From a virus: 30,744 nucleotides of DNA. The stretch lies in the IMG/VR virus record IMGVR_UViG_3300028275_000045, positions 1 to 30,744 of that record. One strand, written 5' to 3'. Positions 3,557 through 29,394 of this stretch are shown here, piece after piece. The position numbers and the translations under genes are program-made. Each line of letters begins with the position of its first letter. Position 1 is the stretch's first letter. Under the pieces are notes generated by a model that was not told the DNA's origin, did not search any database, and worked only from the letters and a program-made list of their open reading frames with translations.

Positions 3557-3795
3557 CAGTAGTCCTCTTCCTCGTCGTCGAAGTCGACATCCGCATTAGT
3601 GACATCAAGACACCAGCGTGACTCGGTCAGATTGACAGCCTGGCGAGGGAGGTTTTCCCGCAACAGATTGCCATTCAGGTCGGCATACGCCAAGACCAGA
3701 GTGTCATCGCTGGCAAAAGATATCACAGTCATCGGCGGCGAACCGCTGTTCAGGCAGACGACATCTCCAACCTCAAACCCCTCGCTCCGCGCCAT
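3556..3795 (-). CDS. DUF2158 (YodC)-like small protein, 79 aa
   Basis: I set the start at ATG 3795, after GAGGGG; a longer frame to 4089 only shadows the next gene. Residues 5-25 ('GFEVGDVVCLNSGSPPMTVI') match the DUF2158 pattern 'VGDVVxLkSGgPxMTV', followed by strands 'LVLAYADLNGNLLRENLP'. DUF2158 proteins are short beta-barrel-like proteins of unknown role. The C-terminus is strongly acidic ('VDFDDEEEDY'), which is odd for the family. It overlaps the upstream GT7-like gene by 23 bases. Confidence 0.65.
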   Translation of the reverse strand: MARSEGFEVGDVVCLNSGSPPMTVISFASDDTLVLAYADLNGNLLRENLPRQAVNLTESRWCLDVTNADVDFDDEEEDY

Positions 3796-4522
3796 CGTCT
3801 TCCCCTCGTGTGCGCCAGAAAGTGTGGAATTCATCCGGATCAGTTCCGTCTGTGTTGGCAAGCTCTTCCACCGCAGGAGGAGCCTGGGTGGTGGCCGGAG
3901 CTTCAGTCGTGGGGATGGCTGGGGCTGGTGTCGAGCCAAGCTCAGCTGTTGCCAGGACAACCTTGCCCTTGATCCCAGGCAGACTGTCTGTCGAGAGAAT
4001 CCGGTAAACCAGACTGGACATGCCATCCTTGGATCGGTCGTAGTTGGTGCCGACCCGCTTGCCAGCCTTGAACTGCTCCATGACATCAAATGTCAATGGT
4101 GGGAAGTTTGCCTCGCGACGGGACATGAAAATGCCCTTGCGGATGCATCGCTCAAACATGTCGGCGGTGTGGACATTCGTGCCGGGATAGCAGTTGGAGT
4201 AACCGTTGACCTCGCTGTAGATTTCCACGGGCATGATCTGCACGCCGCCCATCTCCACGAAGGCGTCTTCCAGGCGGTAGTCGGCATCCGACCCAGTAAG
4301 CGGCTCGGAAGAATGGAAGACGAAATAAGCGGCGTCCGTCACCTGAACCCCAACATTGCACAACCAACCAGCGTTCAACGGCCCCTCGTCGGCCTGGCGT
4401 ACCACCACAACCTCGTAGTTGAGATCGGGATTCTTTTTGGCGATCTGTTTGGTGAGCGCATCCAGAAAACCGTTGACATCGGCAGACTTGGAGGCGGGGA
4501 CGATGAAGGCGATCTTGTGCAT
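3773..4522 (-). CDS. GT7-like (beta-1,4-galactosyltransferase-fold) protein, catalytic motifs lost
   Basis: The ATG at 4522 follows GGAAG. The core resembles family GT7: 'CNVGVQ' (55-60), a strand leading to the place of the catalytic DVD, then 'GGVQIMPVEIYSEVNGYSN' (92-110), and a C-terminal 'SKDGMSSLVYRIL' (164-176) like the GT7 'DGLNSLTYxVL' segment. However the DxD position reads 'FHSSEP' (69-74), and the region where GT7 has WGWGGED reads 'CYPGTNVHTADMF' (111-123). It therefore probably binds a sugar or nucleotide-sugar without transferring it, or uses other residues. A Thr/Pro/Ala linker (about 198-218) and an acidic tail follow. There is no signal peptide. Confidence 0.65.
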   Translation of the reverse strand: MHKIAFIVPASKSADVNGFLDALTKQIAKKNPDLNYEVVVVRQADEGPLNAGWLCNVGVQVTDAAYFVFHSSEPLTGSDADYRLEDAFVEMGGVQIMPVEIYSEVNGYSNCYPGTNVHTADMFERCIRKGIFMSRREANFPPLTFDVMEQFKAGKRVGTNYDRSKDGMSSLVYRILSTDSLPGIKGKVVLATAELGSTPAPAIPTTEAPATTQAPPAVEELANTDGTDPDEFHTFWRTRGEDDGAERGV

Positions 4523-5140: not shown

Positions 5141-6790
5141 TTAGCTACCGCAAGTTCCACCCTTGCCACCAATTACACAGACATCATGCTCTAGGTACTC
5201 CACGCCCTGTTGCTTGGCGGCCTCGTCATAGTCCACGGAGACTAGGGGCTGGCCACCGCGGGCACCATCGGGGTAAACCGTGAAGCCACGCAAGCGAGGG
5301 GCATACTTGGACAGGGTTGCGGCGAAGTCCTCAATCTTGTCCTCGTTGTTCAGTTCCGACCCCCAGCTGGGCATGTTGATCGTCGACGAGATGGACTGGT
5401 CAACATAATCCTGGGTGTCAGCCTGGAACTTGAGGCGACGCTCGTAATCCCGGGCTAGGTCGATGGCCGACTCGATCTTGTGGGGGTCCACGCCGTATCG
5501 CTCGATCAGGTCCTTGGCGGCGCTGTCCACGACATATTGATAGTGCCACTGGGTACCGTTCTTGAGGTAGCGTCGTTTGTAAGCCACGGCAAAGACCGGT
5601 TCGATGCCGGTGGTCGTGCCAGCCAGAATACCGATGGAGCCGGTGGGGGCAATCGCCCGCTTGGCCACGGGTTCGCTGATGCCCAGCTTGGCCGAGAACG
5701 AACGGGAAACGGCATCAGACTCGTCCCGGTAGATCGCCAGCCACTTGTGGAGGTCATCGGTGACTTCGTAGCGACTGCCCCGCTGCACCAGCCACTCGTG
5801 CATACCCATCAGCCCCAGCCCAAGTCGGCGATTCTTCTCACGAATTGCGTAGACTTTGTCGTAGGGCAGATGCGCCACCATGGTGCCACAAATCAAGAAC
5901 TTGGTGGCCAACTCGACAATCTGACGGAACTCTTCGGCAGTCTCAATACGAGACATGTTCAGAGAGCCGAGATTACACACATCAGAGTCGTCCTCTGAGG
6001 TCACTTCCGTGCAGGCATTGCGCAGGGTCTCGTTCTGCTTGTCGCCGAAGTTGAAAGACCATCCAGGCTCCCCGGTCTCCATGGCCTGACGGCAGTTGAT
6101 CAAAAAGACTTCGTTCTTGTGGCGGTCGGGCAGGTTCAGCCAAGCGTCATCGTAGTTGGCCGAAATATTGGTCATGTCCAACGGGGCGGGATAGTTGAAA
6201 TCGGCGACCTTGCAGTCCCACACCGTCTTGTCGGTCCCTGGCACCTTCATGGAGTGCCAATCCTTGGCGTACAAGAAGTTTTTAATGTCTTGGTGCTGCC
6301 AGTTCAGCGAGGCGTAGATCGCCGACCGCCGGGAGCCACCCTGCATGACCTCGCGACCGATCTCGTTAATCATCCTCATCTTAGAGACAGGGCCAGAGGC
6401 CTCCCCACCCGTCCGCTTCAGAGGCGTGCCTTTGGGGCGGTAAATGGAATAGTCCACCCCAATGCCACCACCAGTTGCCAAGCACGACTCTGCCTTCCAG
6501 GACAACATGGCCCAGTCTTCACGAGTATCCTCTTCTGCTCTCAAAAGATAGCAATTGTTAAATGCTTTGATAGGCCTGCCAGCATAATAGATATAGCGAC
6601 CGCCGGGCAGAAATTTCATTTCGGCGATGGCTTGGGTCAGGGTTGCTTTTTCGTCGGCGGTCATCCATTCCCGGCAGACATCTTCGACCAGCACTTTGGC
6701 CAATTTTTCCCAGGTTTCACAACCTTCGTGCCTATACTTATAGTTAAAGATATCTTCTGAAAACTTGTTACGAAAAACGCTTGCAGACAT
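5141..6790 (-). CDS. nrdJ: Adenosylcobalamin-dependent (class II) ribonucleotide reductase, 549 aa
   Basis: The enzyme reduces ribonucleotides to deoxyribonucleotides using a 5'-deoxyadenosyl radical from coenzyme B12. I see the reductase barrel landmarks: 'GGRYIYYAG' (63-71), redox Cys80 in 'FNNCYL', the active-site 'NACTE' (Asn258, Cys260, Glu262), the partner Cys272 in 'DVCNLGSLNM', and the phosphate-binding 'PTGSIGILAGTTTGIEP'. The C-terminus ends in 'CVIGGKGGTCGS', a Cys pair for re-reduction. At 549 aa it is shorter than typical cellular class II enzymes (over 700 aa). No class I radical subunit is present in the window. I chose ATG 6790 because GGAGG lies 8 nt upstream; the longer frame uses TTG 6805. 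ThyX at 16196-16990 would use its product pool. Confidence 0.87.
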   Translation of the reverse strand: MSASVFRNKFSEDIFNYKYRHEGCETWEKLAKVLVEDVCREWMTADEKATLTQAIAEMKFLPGGRYIYYAGRPIKAFNNCYLLRAEEDTREDWAMLSWKAESCLATGGGIGVDYSIYRPKGTPLKRTGGEASGPVSKMRMINEIGREVMQGGSRRSAIYASLNWQHQDIKNFLYAKDWHSMKVPGTDKTVWDCKVADFNYPAPLDMTNISANYDDAWLNLPDRHKNEVFLINCRQAMETGEPGWSFNFGDKQNETLRNACTEVTSEDDSDVCNLGSLNMSRIETAEEFRQIVELATKFLICGTMVAHLPYDKVYAIREKNRRLGLGLMGMHEWLVQRGSRYEVTDDLHKWLAIYRDESDAVSRSFSAKLGISEPVAKRAIAPTGSIGILAGTTTGIEPVFAVAYKRRYLKNGTQWHYQYVVDSAAKDLIERYGVDPHKIESAIDLARDYERRLKFQADTQDYVDQSISSTINMPSWGSELNNEDKIEDFAATLSKYAPRLRGFTVYPDGARGGQPLVSVDYDEAAKQQGVEYLEHDVCVIGGKGGTCGS

Positions 6791-6805
6791 GACAAAAACC
6801 TCCAA

Positions 6806-6940: not shown

Positions 6941-9900
6941 TTATCCTGGCGGAGATGTGCTGGTCACCCCGCCACCTCCACCACCCCCACCACATCCTGC
7001 ATTGAGGCAATCCTGCTCGGAAGCGTAAGTTCCAACCGTGTAGCTTCCTGTGGAAACACAGCCATAGATAAAGCTGTTCCCGGTAGTTGCGACTATCTCA
7101 CAATTGTACCTGTAAGACGGCGCAGCTGTTGTTGAAGTCGTGCTGGTGCTTGTGGTTGTTGAGGTTGTGGTCGTAGTAACCGGAGCAGCTGTCGTGGTCG
7201 TTGTAGCCGAACCAGTTGTGGTAGTCGTTGTGGTCGGCGCAGCCGTCGTAGTGGTCGTGGTTGTTGTGGTTGTTGTGGTGGTAGTAGTTCCACACCCCGA
7301 GTTTATACAATCATTATTACTGGTATAAGGTCCACCAACAATAGTATGTTCATATTGAGGGCTATCTAAGCTATCAAGATATCCACATCTATCTAAAATC
7401 ATTGCGCCAGTAAATTTATCTCTTGAATAAAAACAATAACGACCAGCTACAAACGGGGGTGTTGTTGTGGTGGTGGTCGGCGCAGCCGTCGTAGTTGTGG
7501 TCGTTCCCAACGAAGCACAAGCCACATTGCACGCGCCCGATGAGACATAAGGCCCGGTATAAGTCACCAAAGGATTGGCGGGTGGGCGCGTTGATATATA
7601 GCTGCACCCAGTAGTGCCTTGATAAGAATCATTGACACAATAATATCCAGCCACCCAAGGTGCTGGGGTAGTGGTGGGCGGGGAAGTCGTGTCAGGTACA
7701 GGATCGTCTCCAAAACATCCAGCACCATAAATAATCGACTGACGATTGTCGTCTAGATCATCATTTTGAATAACTAGCGTGCCAGTTATGGTGGTGATGT
7801 AACGAATCGAAGGAGAGGTTCCACCCATCGTGAAGGACAATTCCTGGGTAGCCGCTTTGGTCGAATCAAAGTGGTAATAATTTACGGAATTGCTGGAAAC
7901 AGTCCCAATTCCAGAGCCACCAGACCAAACAGGCGAGAAAGCACCCGTCATCCTCATGGCGAATTTGGGATTTTTCAAATATTTCAAATTGAGATTGTAG
8001 GTGGCTGGCCCGGTTGGATTGGCTCCACCAAACTTCCATCTTTCCGGAAGATACCAGTCTGTCTCGTTGGCACTCATCTCGTAATGAACGCCGGGAGTCT
8101 GCAATTTTAGCGTGATATATTTGAAGACAATTGATGTGTTCGTGAATTTGAAAACAATGAATTCGCCTGCGTCGCAAGCCAATCGCTTTTGCGAAGAGTC
8201 ATACAGGTTTGTGTAAGTGACAGATGGTGACCCAGAAGCATTCCAGTTGCGGAATATTTCTAGCTTAATTCCGCCAGAATTCTGTCCACCAGCCCACAGA
8301 TAATAATTGGCAGAATATTTCGACCTAAATCGATAATAACGGGTTTCGCCAGCGTCAACAGTCGAAGTGAAGTAATTGACGCCACCAAGCTCTTCCAAAT
8401 CCTGAAGTTCAGTATCAGCTTCGTAGGGCCATGCGTTAACGGGCGTGTAACCGCCTGACTGTGGATCGGTCGCACGAACAGTATGGCTTTCATTGGTTGA
8501 TGTTAAGACTTCCACAGACCAACTTGGCACACGCAAGATTCTTGATCCATAACCCGTATCGGCAATCATGCCGAGCTTCCATTCTCCGTTGGGGCTGTCT
8601 CCAAATAGATCAGTCAATGTTGTGCCAAACGGGGCCGATGAATCCGGCCAATATGTGACATTTTGATTGCCGTTGGGATTGGGGCGGAAATTTCCTCCAG
8701 AACCGAAAGAAAACAACGAGTCTCCGCTGTCGTTAGTAAAGACATAAGTCTGTTCTGTGATATTGCCGCTATTTGCCAGGGCGCCAGCCAGCAAGAGATC
8801 TTTGCCTGACGGTGCTTTCAACATCAACACGCTTGTGCCAACCGAAGAAAAAGATGACACATCGTGCAGAGTTACTTTCAAACCAGCTATGACGCCGGAC
8901 ATGCCAGAAAATTGGAGGCTCGTCCTGTAAACATCCCCGCCGGTTGCCTCACCAGGAGGGTTGGTAAATTGCATCTGGACTTCCGGAACATTGGAAGGCC
9001 ACGCTGGTGGTGGGGGAAGTGTGTCCGGGTCCATGTTGATACGAATGAACATGTCCGGTTGTGCGCAATAAGTACAGACCGGATCATAGATGATGGCGTC
9101 TTCACCGATACCACTTTCGTAGCCATGCAACGAGCAATCGTAGCTAAAAGGCGCCTTTTCTTCTAATGTTACCGTTAAGACCACATCGCCGCCCCAGAAC
9201 CCATCTGCCACATTGCCAGACGCAGGATTGGTGGCCGAAGGAACCAGTCGGTTGAACCCATCTGTGTCAAATAAACGAAAAGGATGAGTGCTGGTGTTTT
9301 GCAGACGGAATGTGTAGGTCAAATTGGCGACTGATTTGGGGATCATGCTGCTGACCACATACCAGTTTGTGCCGTCGTCGCTGAACTCAAAATGATTGCC
9401 GGAGATACCGTTCGTGTTGGAAGACGAGCGGACATAGGTTAAGGATTTGAGGCATGTTGCTGGCAGCGGGTAGGGGCTTGCGGTCGTGGTTGTTGTGCTG
9501 GTGGTCGTGCTGGTTGTGGTAGTGGTCGGGCCGCTGGTAGTCGTTGTGGAAGTTGTCGTGGAAGTCGTGGTTGTTGTAGTGGTTGTGGTCGTGGTGCAAC
9601 AGGCTCCCAGGACGCGATAACCCAAAGAAGCGGCGTCATAAACCAGCGTTACCCCACCCAACGGAAAAACAGGGTAGTCATCCAGATCAAGAACCAGCAG
9701 TTTGGAGCCGGACGGTGCTGTCACCGAAGCGTGCTTTAGGTAGAATGTGTCAGTCTCGGAAATATTCAGCAGATAGACAGTTTCACCATCTGCGATTGAC
9801 TCTACGCCATGGATTTCATAACCATTGATCGGCGGATCAACACGCAGGATATTCTTGCCATAGCGAGGCAGTTCCAGAGTGCTTACCCCAGACAGAGACG

Positions 9901-10582
9901 GGGTGTGGCTTGAGAGGGCGACCGCCGAGTTCGCCAACATCTGGTAAGTGCCGACATGCCTCCAGGCGGTTGAGTGCTGGCTGACCATCACGCCGTCGAC
10001 GCGCACAAGGTCATAGCCGGAAGGCCTGCCGGTGTCTCTGTCCCAAACCACCTTCTGCAAAGCCACAGCCTGGGCAGAATTATCCCAGTAGGCAAACACA
10101 TCCACGCATTTGCCAGCTACTTCGTTGGCCGACACATAGGGGGCGATATTCAGCGTGAACTTGCGCCAACGGCTTTCCAAGGTGTCCCACAAGGAAATGT
10201 TGTTGCCCTGAAGTGGAGCCAAATAGACAGTTCCAGAGCCTGGAGCCTCTGTGTCCGTCGCCGAAAACGACAGGGCAGCATTGGCAATACCGTTATTGTC
10301 CAACACATCTAGAAGACCATCCCGCGTCACGGTGTGGGCGATGGGGTCGCCAGCGGCGTGTAGGACGGCTGTGGTACCTTCCCTTCCTCGCAAAACTGTC
10401 AGCGTGTTTGTCTGGTCATCAACAGCTGTGACCCGCATCACCTCTTGACCGCAGGTCACTTCAAAGGGTGGGTGGGGGAACTTCAGGATATTGACAACGA
10501 CGATCTCGGTGTCGGTTGAACTGATCGCTGAACCGAGGTAGGTGACAGCCTGGTTGGAAAAACGGTGGAGTTGACCGGCCAT
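6941..10582 (-). CDS. Large Thr-rich virion/adhesin protein with P-domain-like module and three Cys-rich repeats, 1213 aa
   Basis: The ATG at 10582 follows GAGG. Domains in order: residues 1-328 are paralogous to the 11296-12414 protein (a beta-rich virion head module); 329-368 is a nearly pure Thr/Ser linker; 370-500 is a beta-sandwich-like region; about 535-695 resembles a P/Homo B (proprotein-convertase P) domain ('FSGMSGVIAGLKVTLHDVSS', 'LKAPSGKDLLLAG', 'SPNGEWKLGMIADTG'); 700-955 holds two further beta-rich modules. Three Cys-rich repeats follow (about 981-1023, 1049-1098, 1161-1199), each ending 'GxYxSxxxCxxxxC' and separated by Thr-rich linkers. The C-terminus is a run of glycines. No signal peptide. 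Best read as a tail fibre or surface-binding virion protein; the mucin-like linkers could be glycosylated by the glycosyltransferases nearby. Confidence 0.75.
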   Translation of the reverse strand: MAGQLHRFSNQAVTYLGSAISSTDTEIVVVNILKFPHPPFEVTCGQEVMRVTAVDDQTNTLTVLRGREGTTAVLHAAGDPIAHTVTRDGLLDVLDNNGIANAALSFSATDTEAPGSGTVYLAPLQGNNISLWDTLESRWRKFTLNIAPYVSANEVAGKCVDVFAYWDNSAQAVALQKVVWDRDTGRPSGYDLVRVDGVMVSQHSTAWRHVGTYQMLANSAVALSSHTPSLSGVSTLELPRYGKNILRVDPPINGYEIHGVESIADGETVYLLNISETDTFYLKHASVTAPSGSKLLVLDLDDYPVFPLGGVTLVYDAASLGYRVLGACCTTTTTTTTTTTSTTTSTTTTSGPTTTTTSTTTSTTTTTASPYPLPATCLKSLTYVRSSSNTNGISGNHFEFSDDGTNWYVVSSMIPKSVANLTYTFRLQNTSTHPFRLFDTDGFNRLVPSATNPASGNVADGFWGGDVVLTVTLEEKAPFSYDCSLHGYESGIGEDAIIYDPVCTYCAQPDMFIRINMDPDTLPPPPAWPSNVPEVQMQFTNPPGEATGGDVYRTSLQFSGMSGVIAGLKVTLHDVSSFSSVGTSVLMLKAPSGKDLLLAGALANSGNITEQTYVFTNDSGDSLFSFGSGGNFRPNPNGNQNVTYWPDSSAPFGTTLTDLFGDSPNGEWKLGMIADTGYGSRILRVPSWSVEVLTSTNESHTVRATDPQSGGYTPVNAWPYEADTELQDLEELGGVNYFTSTVDAGETRYYRFRSKYSANYYLWAGGQNSGGIKLEIFRNWNASGSPSVTYTNLYDSSQKRLACDAGEFIVFKFTNTSIVFKYITLKLQTPGVHYEMSANETDWYLPERWKFGGANPTGPATYNLNLKYLKNPKFAMRMTGAFSPVWSGGSGIGTVSSNSVNYYHFDSTKAATQELSFTMGGTSPSIRYITTITGTLVIQNDDLDDNRQSIIYGAGCFGDDPVPDTTSPPTTTPAPWVAGYYCVNDSYQGTTGCSYISTRPPANPLVTYTGPYVSSGACNVACASLGTTTTTTAAPTTTTTTPPFVAGRYCFYSRDKFTGAMILDRCGYLDSLDSPQYEHTIVGGPYTSNNDCINSGCGTTTTTTTTTTTTTTTAAPTTTTTTTGSATTTTTAAPVTTTTTSTTTSTSTTSTTAAPSYRYNCEIVATTGNSFIYGCVSTGSYTVGTYASEQDCLNAGCGGGGGGGGVTSTSPPG

Positions 10583-17410: not shown

Positions 17411-17727
17411 TCGTAACCCTCCTCTCGAACAGCCAACTCTTCAGGAACCATACCGCCATAGACCAACAGGATGGACCATGGTTCGACCGACAGGGTGACC
17501 ACGGCACCCAGACGCATCTCGACCCAGCCCTTGTCCCCGATCCTGGCGCCGACACCAACCAGCCTGCGCAGGAAATCCGAGGTGGTCTGCAACGGCTCTT
17601 GTCCTGGGACAGCCGAAGTTGTTGGCATTCGGTAGGGCTGTTCTTTGGACACCAGAAACTTGATCTCGCCGTTTGTCCCGAACGGAACACAGGCCAGAGC
17701 CACGGCTACCTGGAGGTCACACCCCAT
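17323..17727 (-). CDS. Hypothetical protein, possible degenerate Nudix-like fold, 134 aa
   Basis: The ATG at 17727 overlaps the GT4 gene by 11 bases. The first 90 residues ('EIKFLVSKEQPYRMPTTSAV' then 'PGQEPLQTTSDFLRRLVG') have the strand-loop-helix layout of a Nudix domain, but the REXXEE catalytic motif is absent, so hydrolase activity is not expected. Its last 30 residues overlap the start of the 138-aa gene in another frame. The Nudix resemblance is weak and this may be an unrelated orphan. Confidence 0.5.
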   Translation of the reverse strand: MGCDLQVAVALACVPFGTNGEIKFLVSKEQPYRMPTTSAVPGQEPLQTTSDFLRRLVGVGARIGDKGWVEMRLGAVVTLSVEPWSILLVYGGMVPEELAVREEGYEWKTWTSLGRQGVADPLHLSNMLMAAQKI

Positions 17728-18793
17728 CGATAACTCCTAAAACAGAACAAATTTTTCTGGCGGCACTCTCCCAGGAGAGACTTTTGGCGGTCTCAATACC
17801 GGCTTCGTTTATGGTCAGCTTTTCCTGTTGACGCTGCTCGTGGATCGCCCTCATGGCTTTTGCGGTCTCGTCTATTGCGGATTCCCGCAACTGATACCAT
17901 CTCCCCTGCCCCGTGAACCACTTCCCGTCATAGGCAGGTTCAAGGGGACCTGTGGGGATGAGGGTGGCGTTTTGCTTGGTCAAATAATCAAGGTGGGCGG
18001 TGCAGGCCGTGGCGATAACATGACGCCCCATCGAAAGCAGCTCGAGGGCTTCCAGGTTCCATCCTTCCCCGCGGCTCGGGAAAACCCCGCAGTGCGCCGA
18101 CGCAAACAGGGCTGCCACCTCGTTCTGTGTCTCCAAGCGCATGGGGATGCGTATCTTGTCGCCAAGCTTGGATTTCTTGTAGTAGTCCACCCACTCGTTG
18201 GTCTCTTCAGGCGTCAGGAACGGGTTGTCACACAACATGACCAATTCGACATCGTCATCCGGCCTGAATGCCTTCAGGAAAGCCTGGAGCAATAGGTCGT
18301 GACCCTTGCGGATTTCCCACTTGCCTGCGTTGATGAAGCGGGTGGGGCCTTCTTGGGGGAGGGGTTTATCGCCGAAGATGTTGCGGTCCACGCCGCAATG
18401 AATGGTCTCGATTCTGGCTGTCATGCCTGACCGCCTCATCACATCAGCGGACCACTCTCCGAACGCAAACACGCAATCCATCTGGCTGAGTTGGTAGATT
18501 TCCTCGTGCTTCAAGGAATCCAGCTCAAAGAAGGTCGCCGCGGAACGCTTGGACTTAGTGGGGTGCTGCGACAAATCCCAGGCGTGCCAGAGGCGGAAGG
18601 ACGGGTGGTGCGGATTGTAGAACTTGGCCCGCTCCACAGCCTTGGCGAACGCCGCCATTTCGCTGTTGGCGACCACGGCATTGCCGATGGGAAACAGGGC
18701 TGGCTTGACGCCGATCTCAATCATCGCCTTCACGAGGTTGCGACCGACCGTGCCATAGCCAAGTTCGTTGACCGGTGAGCAGACATTGATCAA
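17717..18793 (-). CDS. GT4-type (GT-B) glycosyltransferase, 358 aa
   Basis: The C-terminal half has the retaining GT-B signature: 'FINAGKWEIRKGHDLLLQAF' (the usual G(K/R)xxxxKG segment), 'ALFASAHCGVFPSRGEGWNL' and 'EALELLSMGRHVIAT', with the EX7E motif in 'EGWNLEALE'. The N-terminal half starts 'INVCSPVNELGYGTVGRNL', the acceptor-side Rossmann domain. It would transfer a sugar from a nucleotide-sugar to a glycan or protein. The start overlaps the GT2 stop as ATGA. Acceptor unknown; candidates are host surface glycans or the Thr-rich fibre. Confidence 0.82.
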   Translation of the reverse strand: MINVCSPVNELGYGTVGRNLVKAMIEIGVKPALFPIGNAVVANSEMAAFAKAVERAKFYNPHHPSFRLWHAWDLSQHPTKSKRSAATFFELDSLKHEEIYQLSQMDCVFAFGEWSADVMRRSGMTARIETIHCGVDRNIFGDKPLPQEGPTRFINAGKWEIRKGHDLLLQAFLKAFRPDDDVELVMLCDNPFLTPEETNEWVDYYKKSKLGDKIRIPMRLETQNEVAALFASAHCGVFPSRGEGWNLEALELLSMGRHVIATACTAHLDYLTKQNATLIPTGPLEPAYDGKWFTGQGRWYQLRESAIDETAKAMRAIHEQRQQEKLTINEAGIETAKSLSWESAARKICSVLGVIDGV

Positions 18794-19506
18794 GGGAGGA
18801 ACTCCGTGTAGTCGTAGGACCAGCGCGGCTCCAGATCGACCACTCCTGAGGGCAGCTGCCCCGACAGGATGCGCTCCTTGATGAAGCCTTCCACCAGAGA
18901 CGAGACCTTTTCGGAAGACCAGCCGCTGACGTGGTAAGACTGCACGGATGACCAGCGATAAATATAAAAACGATCCTTGTCCGGGATGGTCTTTGAGAAT
19001 TCGCCATACCTACGGATCAGATCCTGGAACAGCAGGGAATCGGCCCCACACCAGTCGACATGCCGGTACCCACCAACATCCCAAAAGACCTTCTTGGTCA
19101 GCATCAGGCAGGAGTGGAACAGGTTGCTGGCATATTCAATGTGACGGGGTTTTTCTTCGTAAAAGCCAAGGCCGGTGTGGAACAACCCCCGCCACATCCC
19201 CTCAAAGGAATAAGTCAAACGGTGCGGCAAGAAGATGTCGTCATCGTCCCAGACAGCCAAGATGTCGCCAGTCGCCTCCCTGGCGGTCAGATTAAATTTT
19301 TCACCCAGATTGGCGACCCGTTCGGGAAGATTGACTATCTTGACCTCGGGATGGTCAAACCGCAGTTCCTGTTCCGGTAAATCATTAACAATCACCAGCT
19401 CCTTGGGGCCAGGATAGTCCTGGAGCAGGAAAGAGTGCATCGCCTCTTCCAGAGCATGGGGCCTGCCGTATGTGGGGCACAGGCAACTGATTTTCGGGTA
19501 AATCAC
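18790..19506 (-). CDS. GT2-type (GT-A) glycosyltransferase, 238 aa
   Basis: The fold starts 'PKISCLCPTYGRPHALEEAM' and has the DxD-type acidic run 'WDDDDIFLP' near residue 89-97 (counted from GTG 19506), as in family GT2. I chose GTG 19506, which has AGGA upstream; the longer frame to GTG 19542 runs through a terminator hairpin. C-terminal residues hold 'DKDRFYIYRWSSVQSYHVSG'. GT2 proteins transfer sugars by inversion. With the GT4 gene coupled by ATGA, it probably builds or decorates one glycan. Confidence 0.8.
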   Translation of the reverse strand: MIYPKISCLCPTYGRPHALEEAMHSFLLQDYPGPKELVIVNDLPEQELRFDHPEVKIVNLPERVANLGEKFNLTAREATGDILAVWDDDDIFLPHRLTYSFEGMWRGLFHTGLGFYEEKPRHIEYASNLFHSCLMLTKKVFWDVGGYRHVDWCGADSLLFQDLIRRYGEFSKTIPDKDRFYIYRWSSVQSYHVSGWSSEKVSSLVEGFIKERILSGQLPSGVVDLEPRWSYDYTEFLP

Positions 19507-19550
19507 AACAAAAAATCCTATTGGGTAGCACAATTGCAACACCCAATAGG
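19507..19550 (-). terminator. Intrinsic terminator immediately before the GT2 start
   Basis: Minus strand CCTATTGGGT, a 14-nt loop and ACCCAATAGG form a perfect 10-bp stem (19517-19550) followed by ATTTTTTGTT. The U-run ends at the GTG of the GT2 gene, and the AGGA used as its SD is in the 3' arm. It ends the upstream transcript and may control GT2 expression. Confidence 0.75.
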
Positions 19551-27052: not shown

Positions 27053-27080
27053 AGGGGACTCCTTCCTTTGAGAAAACCAT

Positions 27081-27153
27081 TGCGGGAGGCTGGACTCGAA
27101 CCAGCGATCTCCACCTTATGAGGGTGGCGAGATAGCCTCTTCTCTACTCCCGT
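27081..27153 (-). tRNA. tRNA-Met(CAT)
   Basis: A 73-nt cloverleaf: acceptor ACGGGAG/CTCCCGC, D-arm GAGA/TCTC, anticodon arm CCACC-CTCATAA-GGTGG (anticodon CAT), a 5-nt variable loop and T-arm GCTGG-TTCGAGT-CCAGC, discriminator A. CCA is not encoded. The first acceptor pair is A-C. It could read AUG as Met, or AUA if lysidine-modified (Ile2). Confidence 0.88.
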
Positions 27154-27242
27154 ACAACGCACGACAAGGGATGGCAAGCCGTGCGTGTATTGTCAACCGT
27201 GCCGACCGGAAACCCAATCCTAAACACGGTCAACAATTTTTC

Positions 27243-27678: not shown

Positions 27679-27780
27679 TTATCTCCAAGAATTTTTTCGG
27701 AGAAGCATCCAAGCAATGAAAGTAAAGCTGGCCACGCAAGCTAGGTCAGATATACATCGGTAAAGATCGTATTCTTTCAC
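27679..27780 (-). CDS. Single-pass membrane microprotein, 33 aa
   Basis: GTG 27780 overlaps the TGA of the 180-aa gene (GTGA). Direct translation gives 33 residues with one hydrophobic segment ('ISDLACVASFTFIAWMLL') and a basic end ('RKNSWR'), matching a small membrane peptide. Coupled translation and the terminator after it support a real gene. Function unknown. Confidence 0.45.
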   Translation of the reverse strand: MKEYDLYRCISDLACVASFTFIAWMLLRKNSWR

Positions 27781-28319
27781 GGCAAGAATCTCCAAGTCGG
27801 GGTTGGGTTAGGAAGCCAGCCAGCTTCGTAGGCTTCGCCACCCAAAATTTCGCGCAATTGATCTAGTTTCAAACGCTTGGAGTAGAGTGGTATGTTTCGG
27901 TATTGATCGTCAAGCAAATCGTACACTTTATAAATTAAGTCGTTTTCCCGTTGTACGATCAACCAAAAATCCCGGGACTCACCATAACCCTGCAAGATAT
28001 TCCGACGACAAACTTCATCAAACGGTCGATTGTATTTATTCGCCCAAATCATGTAACAAGTCGTTCCTTCCACATAAAAATCGATATAAAAAAATTTCTT
28101 GGCATCTGCCAGTTTTGCCCGACAGGTCAGCGTTTGCTCGTAGGCGTCACGAGCTTTGTTCAAGGAAGTACAGTCTGGATAAGCAAAAAGCTCTAGGTCC
28201 TGGGCGACCTGGGCGATCAGATTCCTGACGAAAGGATTTTCTTGGACTGCGGTTGGGGGAACCCAGACCCGTTCAAAGACGATGAGGTAGGCAATTACCA
28301 GCTTGCCCAATCCCACCAT
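27777..28319 (-). CDS. Hypothetical protein, 180 aa
   Basis: The frame starts at ATG 28319, one base after the upstream stop. The N-terminus is hydrophobic ('GLGKLVIAYLIVFERVWVPP'), perhaps a signal anchor. The rest is soluble, rich in Tyr and Asp ('FFYIDFYVEGTTCYMIWANK', 'YDLLDDQYRNIPL'). No family recognised. Confidence 0.5.
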   Translation of the reverse strand: MVGLGKLVIAYLIVFERVWVPPTAVQENPFVRNLIAQVAQDLELFAYPDCTSLNKARDAYEQTLTCRAKLADAKKFFYIDFYVEGTTCYMIWANKYNRPFDEVCRRNILQGYGESRDFWLIVQRENDLIYKVYDLLDDQYRNIPLYSKRLKLDQLREILGGEAYEAGWLPNPTPTWRFLP

Positions 28320-28832: not shown

Positions 28833-29360
28833 TTAACCTTGCTTGGGTCGAACGCGTAAAAAAAAGAAAACGATTTTTTCCAGCCAGCGCCAGAAACCGA
28901 TGGAGTCAAACAAGGGGTTTAGCCAACTAGACATGACGCAAAAGTGCGTGGCATAAGGACTTATATGATGTCGGGCGTGGTGGCGGGCGTTCTGCAAGAT
29001 GCCAGTTTCTTGGAGGATTTTGACCGGGCGGGGAACGCTGCCCTGATGGGTCCAGGCGTGGAGTTGGTTCGCCTGCGAGGCGAAAATGCCGACTAACATC
29101 CCCCACCAAAGCTCCTGGTATCCCAGCCAAGCTGCGATCAAAAGACAGGGAATCATCGTGGTGTTGTTGCGATCCCAGTAGCTCCCACGGAGAAATGCGC
29201 GGGGTTCGCTGTGGTGCAATTCGTTGGGGGCGGCAACTAGGGGGCCGAAAATAGGCCAGGAGGTTTTGGCGTACCGGTCTTCAAACCAGTGGAAAAGGCC
29301 GGTCAGAAAGTCGGCGGTGAGCCAGGCAGTCAGAATGTAACCAACCCAGTACCAGAACAT
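28833..29360 (-). CDS. TMEM189/CarF-type lipid desaturase (plasmanylethanolamine desaturase family), 175 aa
   Basis: I chose ATG 29360, 6 nt after GAGG. The family's histidines are present (numbering from the ATG 4 codons earlier): 'TGLFHWFEDRY' (His28), 'PNELHHSEPRAF' (His53, His54), 'NQLHAWTHQ' (His105, His109), 'ARHHARHH' (His131, 132, 135, 136) and His143, together a di-iron-type ligand set. Hydrophobic stretches flank them, as in a membrane enzyme. Homologues introduce the vinyl-ether double bond of plasmalogens. A phage copy would alter host membrane lipids. 'WLNPLFDSIGFWRWLE' near the C-terminus is also typical. Confidence 0.82.
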   Translation of the reverse strand: MFWYWVGYILTAWLTADFLTGLFHWFEDRYAKTSWPIFGPLVAAPNELHHSEPRAFLRGSYWDRNNTTMIPCLLIAAWLGYQELWWGMLVGIFASQANQLHAWTHQGSVPRPVKILQETGILQNARHHARHHISPYATHFCVMSSWLNPLFDSIGFWRWLEKIVFFFLRVRPKQG

Positions 29361-29370
29361 CGGAAGCCTC

Positions 29371-29394
29371 ATTTGGGATTAAAATGTCCCAAAT
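29371..29394 (-). promoter_or_regulatory. Hairpin in the desaturase leader
   Basis: ATTTGGGA and TCCCAAAT form a perfect 8-bp stem with an 8-base loop, just 10 bases before the start at 29360. There is no U-run. It may influence translation or be an operator. Confidence 0.4.

Follow-up and report, generated by a model that had tools for sequence, protein, structure and literature searches.

Which lipid chemistry might a tailed phage bring into its host with a single small membrane enzyme? The question is raised by a gene at 28833-29360 of the window, the whole 30,744-nucleotide stretch of IMG/VR virus record IMGVR_UViG_3300028275_000045 that was analysed here. A sequence-only reading had called this gene a phage-encoded TMEM189/CarF-type lipid desaturase. 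Its assignment to a PF10520 lipid desaturase of a tailed phage stands; the TMEM189/CarF function is not supported, with glycine at the position of mouse H131 and asparagine at that of mouse F118. The gene and its surroundings are as follows.

28833-29360, minus strand: PF10520 lipid desaturase gene, 175 aa from the preferred ATG at 29360
29367-29370, minus strand: GAGG, probable ribosome-binding site for start 29360, read from the sequence
27780-28319, minus strand: next larger gene downstream of the desaturase, function not assigned; it adjoins the desaturase in a 149 kb relative too (86% identity)

This virus record belongs to a tailed phage. Among the products of the window are a phage-type ribonucleotide reductase (RNR), ThyX and a sigma factor, and there are matches to tail fibres. 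The 149 kb contig G001, which encodes terminase, portal and DnaB, runs colinear with most of the window's larger minus-strand genes, and protein identities between the two are typically 57-86%, reaching 99%. This colinearity rules out a bacterial contig or a misassembly, and with it the bacterial flanks that could have overturned the sequence-only reading. Phage genes likewise flank the relative in the isolate vB_EliS-L02.

Several other features of the window deserve mention. The RNR (5141-6805) is 98.7% identical in protein and 91% in DNA to that of the 149 kb relative, with neighbours at about 70-80%, an excess that suggests recent exchange or strong constraint. An open-ended reading frame at 1-1092, which matches LAGLIDADG homing endonuclease and, weakly, Hint, is probably an intein in a protein running off the left end. 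At 6941-10582 lies a 1213 aa tail-fibre-like protein with 15% threonine and long threonine runs, and glycosyltransferases are encoded at 17717-18793 and 18790-19542, with a weak one at 3773-4522; glycosylation of the threonine-rich fibre is possible. A search for DNA matches in 392 Planctomycetota genomes returned mostly tRNA-Met and short weak matches, and no host for the window phage. The tRNA-Met gene itself (27080-27154) is about 75-83% identical to the matching stretches in those genomes.

The desaturase reading frame is open on the minus strand from 28833 to 29372 without an internal stop, and an alternative in-frame ATG at 29372 would give 179 aa. We prefer the start at 29360: GAGG lies just 5' of it, and the nearest homologue, 74% identical, begins at the matching methionine. 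This bears out the start given in the sequence-only reading. Against this homologue, dN is 0.17 and dS 1.29 (dN/dS about 0.13-0.19), and changes fall mainly on third codon positions (77, versus 35 and 22 at the other two), a pattern that indicates purifying selection.

By profile comparison, the protein is assigned to PF10520 (Lipid_desat), the Kua/CarF/TMEM189/FAD4 superfamily. The match covers residues 17-178 and profile positions 1-174 of 175 (E 6e-40), and its 137.6 bits against a curated cut-off of 26.4 indicate full-length membership; the presence of such a gene in the window is far beyond chance. No matching PHROGs family was found for it. The catalytic positions, numbered from the methionine at 29372, lie as follows.

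29289-29291, minus strand: first conserved histidine, H28, in an HW box; invariant in 86 of 86 sequences
29277-29279, minus strand: essential aspartate D32, equivalent of human D99 and mouse D100; invariant
29211-29225, minus strand: NELHH box with H53 and H54, and with Asn50 at the PEDS1/FAD4 Phe118 place, from the alignment
29184-29186, minus strand: Gly63 at the PEDS1-specific ninth-histidine place (CarF H113, mouse H131), from the alignment
29046-29060, minus strand: HAWTH box with H105 and H109; histidines invariant
28965-28979, minus strand: HARHH box with H132, H135 and H136; histidines invariant

All eight family histidines (H28, H53, H54, H105, H109, H132, H135 and H136) are present, and together with D32 they are invariant in all 86 aligned sequences. 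The sequence-only reading had reported every family histidine cluster; this is correct for the eight shared histidines, and relatives do not lose them, but the ninth, PEDS1-only histidine is absent. At that position the window protein has Gly and its relatives Gly or Gln; histidine occurs there in 1 of the 86, a distant megaphage copy. The place of mouse F118 is taken by Asn, as in many bacterial homologues. Human TMEM189 and Arabidopsis FAD4 served as references in these comparisons. The TMEM189 residues used match the published positions D99 and F117, and H130 is in place as expected from its mouse homologue H131.

An AlphaFold2 model of the protein has a mean pLDDT of 95.6 and a pTM of 0.90. 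Its best viral fold neighbour is a Harvfovirus protein annotated "Lipid desaturase domain" (E 3.4e-6, TM 0.67). The PDB held no sequence relative of the PF10520 family when queried with the window protein, the profile and human TMEM189, and the best fold neighbour there, the fatty-acid hydroxylase Scs7p, is weak (E 0.34, TM 0.44). Hydroxylation of lipids or fatty acids, or some other di-iron oxidation, in place of desaturation has in its favour that neighbour, the active-site change from Phe to Asn and a weak FA_hydroxylase match (E 3e-4, below its cut-off). We regard this as unlikely: FA_hydroxylase scores 21.7 bits against 137.6 for PF10520, and the known characterised PF10520 members (PEDS1 and FAD4) are desaturases.

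The same residues bear on another alternative, a true plasmalogen-forming PEDS1, which would introduce the vinyl-ether bond into the alkyl phospholipids that an ether-lipid host makes. Eight histidines are common to PEDS1 and FAD4, and mouse H131 marks PEDS1; D100A abolishes the mouse activity, whereas H131A keeps 7.4% and F118A 5.9% (PMC8960569). The phage protein retains the eight histidines and the D100 equivalent, D32, and its changes fall at the two positions where the mouse mutants stay partly active. Planctomycetota, possible hosts of related phages, also carry full-motif PEDS1-like copies and have ether-lipid genes (PMC11868695). However, Gly or Gln for H131 and Asn for F118 weaken the plasmalogen reading, and the plant and alphaproteobacterial homologues that were tested could not replace CarF, which the same review confines to myxobacteria, a few Leptospira and Alphaproteobacteria (PMC9131029). 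In the tree, too, the phage branch is separate from TMEM189 and from the PEDS1-like copies of planctomycetes. Taken together, a plasmalogen-forming PEDS1 is quite improbable, and the phage enzyme is probably something else.

The tree has 75 rows. Because its viral sequences were collected with patterns derived from phages, bacteria are sampled less evenly in it. In this tree, 24 viral rows and one Pirellulaceae gene (L086) form one clade (support 98/89), to which the copies of the Erythrobacter phage and the Novosphingobium prophage attach (81/96). L086 is the only sampled bacterial chromosomal copy that does not fall outside the phage clade; it looks chromosomal, flanked by what we judge from their sequences to be sulfatase-like and M56-peptidase-like reading frames. 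The copy of a 595 kb phage (LR756511, L009) groups with FAD4 (98/80), and a topology that forces it among the other phages fails the AU test (p 0.0002), but this placement is tentative because FAD4 is a long branch. The window protein does not join FAD4; only L009 does.

Many Planctomycetota homologues carry the full PEDS1 motif; the Asn form occurs in other Planctomycetota and in most Hyphomonadaceae. The window protein belongs to a third, "N-type" branch of PF10520 that it shares with many bacterial homologues and that is distinct from the PEDS1 and FAD4 types. The gene neighbours of the bacterial N-type copies show no lipid theme. Several of the Planctomycetota genomes L131-L148 carry PF10520 genes with the full PEDS1 motif, a group outside those to which the review confines CarF.

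Relatives of the gene are common in phages. A profile scan of IMG/VR found at least 114 stretches encoding them, a redundant set with many near-copies of the same phages, of which 80 were kept. Searches with tblastn found relatives in the uncultured phage of 595 kb and in vB_EliS-L02, a cultured phage of Erythrobacter. The relative in vB_EliS-L02, UIS25202.1, is 36% identical, is annotated as hypothetical and lies between phoH and portal. The paper on vB_EliS-L02 lists fourteen auxiliary metabolic genes, none lipid-related. A Novosphingobium Mu-like prophage has an intact copy, with a Phage_tail_S gene on one side and the tail-sheath region on the other, and the carriers span phages with different packaging genes (terminases).

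In several lineages the desaturase sits among late structural genes. The order in the L088/L040 lineage is terminase, portal, protease/MCP, decoration, trypsin-like protease, desaturase, head-tail joining, neck and tape measure; in L029 and its kin, protease and desaturase precede the terminase and portal just downstream. The window lineage differs, with the desaturase outside any structural cassette and no trypsin-like protease.

6777-7937 of L088 and homologues: trypsin-like protease, adjoining the desaturase

This protease gene lies directly upstream of the desaturase, within 234 bases, at each of the 28 loci in which it was detected; many of these loci are near-copies. Its product keeps serine-protease-like NAHVAG and GGRSGSS motifs and, as read from its sequence, has a signal peptide and a C-terminal membrane helix. 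That the desaturase is a mere passenger, a captured host gene without benefit to the phage, might be read from its differing location between lineages and the copy on a Pirellulaceae contig, but purifying selection, an active site invariant in 86 sequences, a deep phage clade and recurrence in phages with different terminases make this very improbable.

We therefore consider it likely that the gene encodes a small, N-type membrane di-iron lipid desaturase, made by the phage in its host and altering the host membrane. The protein is probably active. By family analogy, its eight-histidine di-iron site would use O2 and electrons supplied by the host; a simple motif search gave no convincing ferredoxin or cytochrome b5 candidate, and host electron donors are therefore assumed. 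Two hydrogens would be taken from a fatty chain while it is part of an intact membrane phospholipid, and the double bond would probably lie close to the glycerol end, where FAD4 and PEDS1 place theirs. The host membrane would change at a late stage of infection or at about the time of assembly and lysis. We infer catalysis, substrate, timing and benefit, the timing (late expression) being borrowed from relatives. With Asn at the F118 place and Gly at that of H131, activity might be weak or the chemistry different, such as hydroxylation.

A bolder proposal, which we hold to be doubtful, is that a largely viral subfamily modifies membrane lipids in a way that cells are not known to do. In several unrelated tailed phages its expression would coincide with that of the late genes, and one branch would act together with the secreted, membrane-anchored trypsin-like protease encoded upstream to remodel the host envelope. 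The action of phages on the membrane lipids of infected bacteria has been little studied, and a mostly viral branch that several unrelated tailed phages maintain, often amid late structural genes, suggests that a phospholipid change helps assembly, lysis or the exclusion of rivals. Since the carrier vB_EliS-L02 and its host, Erythrobacter litoralis DSM 8509, are both cultured, the question is directly testable.

Phage lipid desaturases as a kind are already known, and what seems to be new here is the PF10520 family in phages. Roitman 2018 is said to describe fatty-acid desaturases of cyanophages. The sequence-only reading had seen no phage gene of this type described, and the open-licence literature likewise yielded no report of PF10520, plasmanylethanolamine desaturase or TMEM189 in phages, an absence that is not proof. 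Phage-borne lipid desaturases of other families have been reported (PMC7300359, citing Roitman 2018; PMC7678222). Those of cyanophages, Arctic brine (vFAD) and Baikal Nitrospirota viruses resemble the present enzyme in being phage-borne and proposed to alter host membranes. Unlike it, the Arctic brine vFAD resemble stearoyl-CoA desaturase 4ZYO and the Baikal gene is called an acyl-CoA desaturase, and the available parts of both accounts do not mention PF10520.

Within PF10520, the phage protein shares with CarF/TMEM189/PEDS1 the eight histidines, the D99/D100 equivalent and membrane helices around the histidine boxes. It differs in having Gly for H131 and Asn for F118, in its separate tree branch and in its length (175-179 aa versus 281 and 270 aa for CarF and TMEM189). 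Plant FAD4, the 3-trans desaturase of phosphatidylglycerol, has the same eight histidines and likewise lacks H131, but its sequence carries Phe at the F118 place, as L009 also does, where the window protein has Asn. The N-type bacterial proteins of Hyphomonadaceae, Phycisphaerales, Verrucomicrobiota and others mostly have Asn for F118 and lack the ninth histidine, and they show mainly 34-40% identity.
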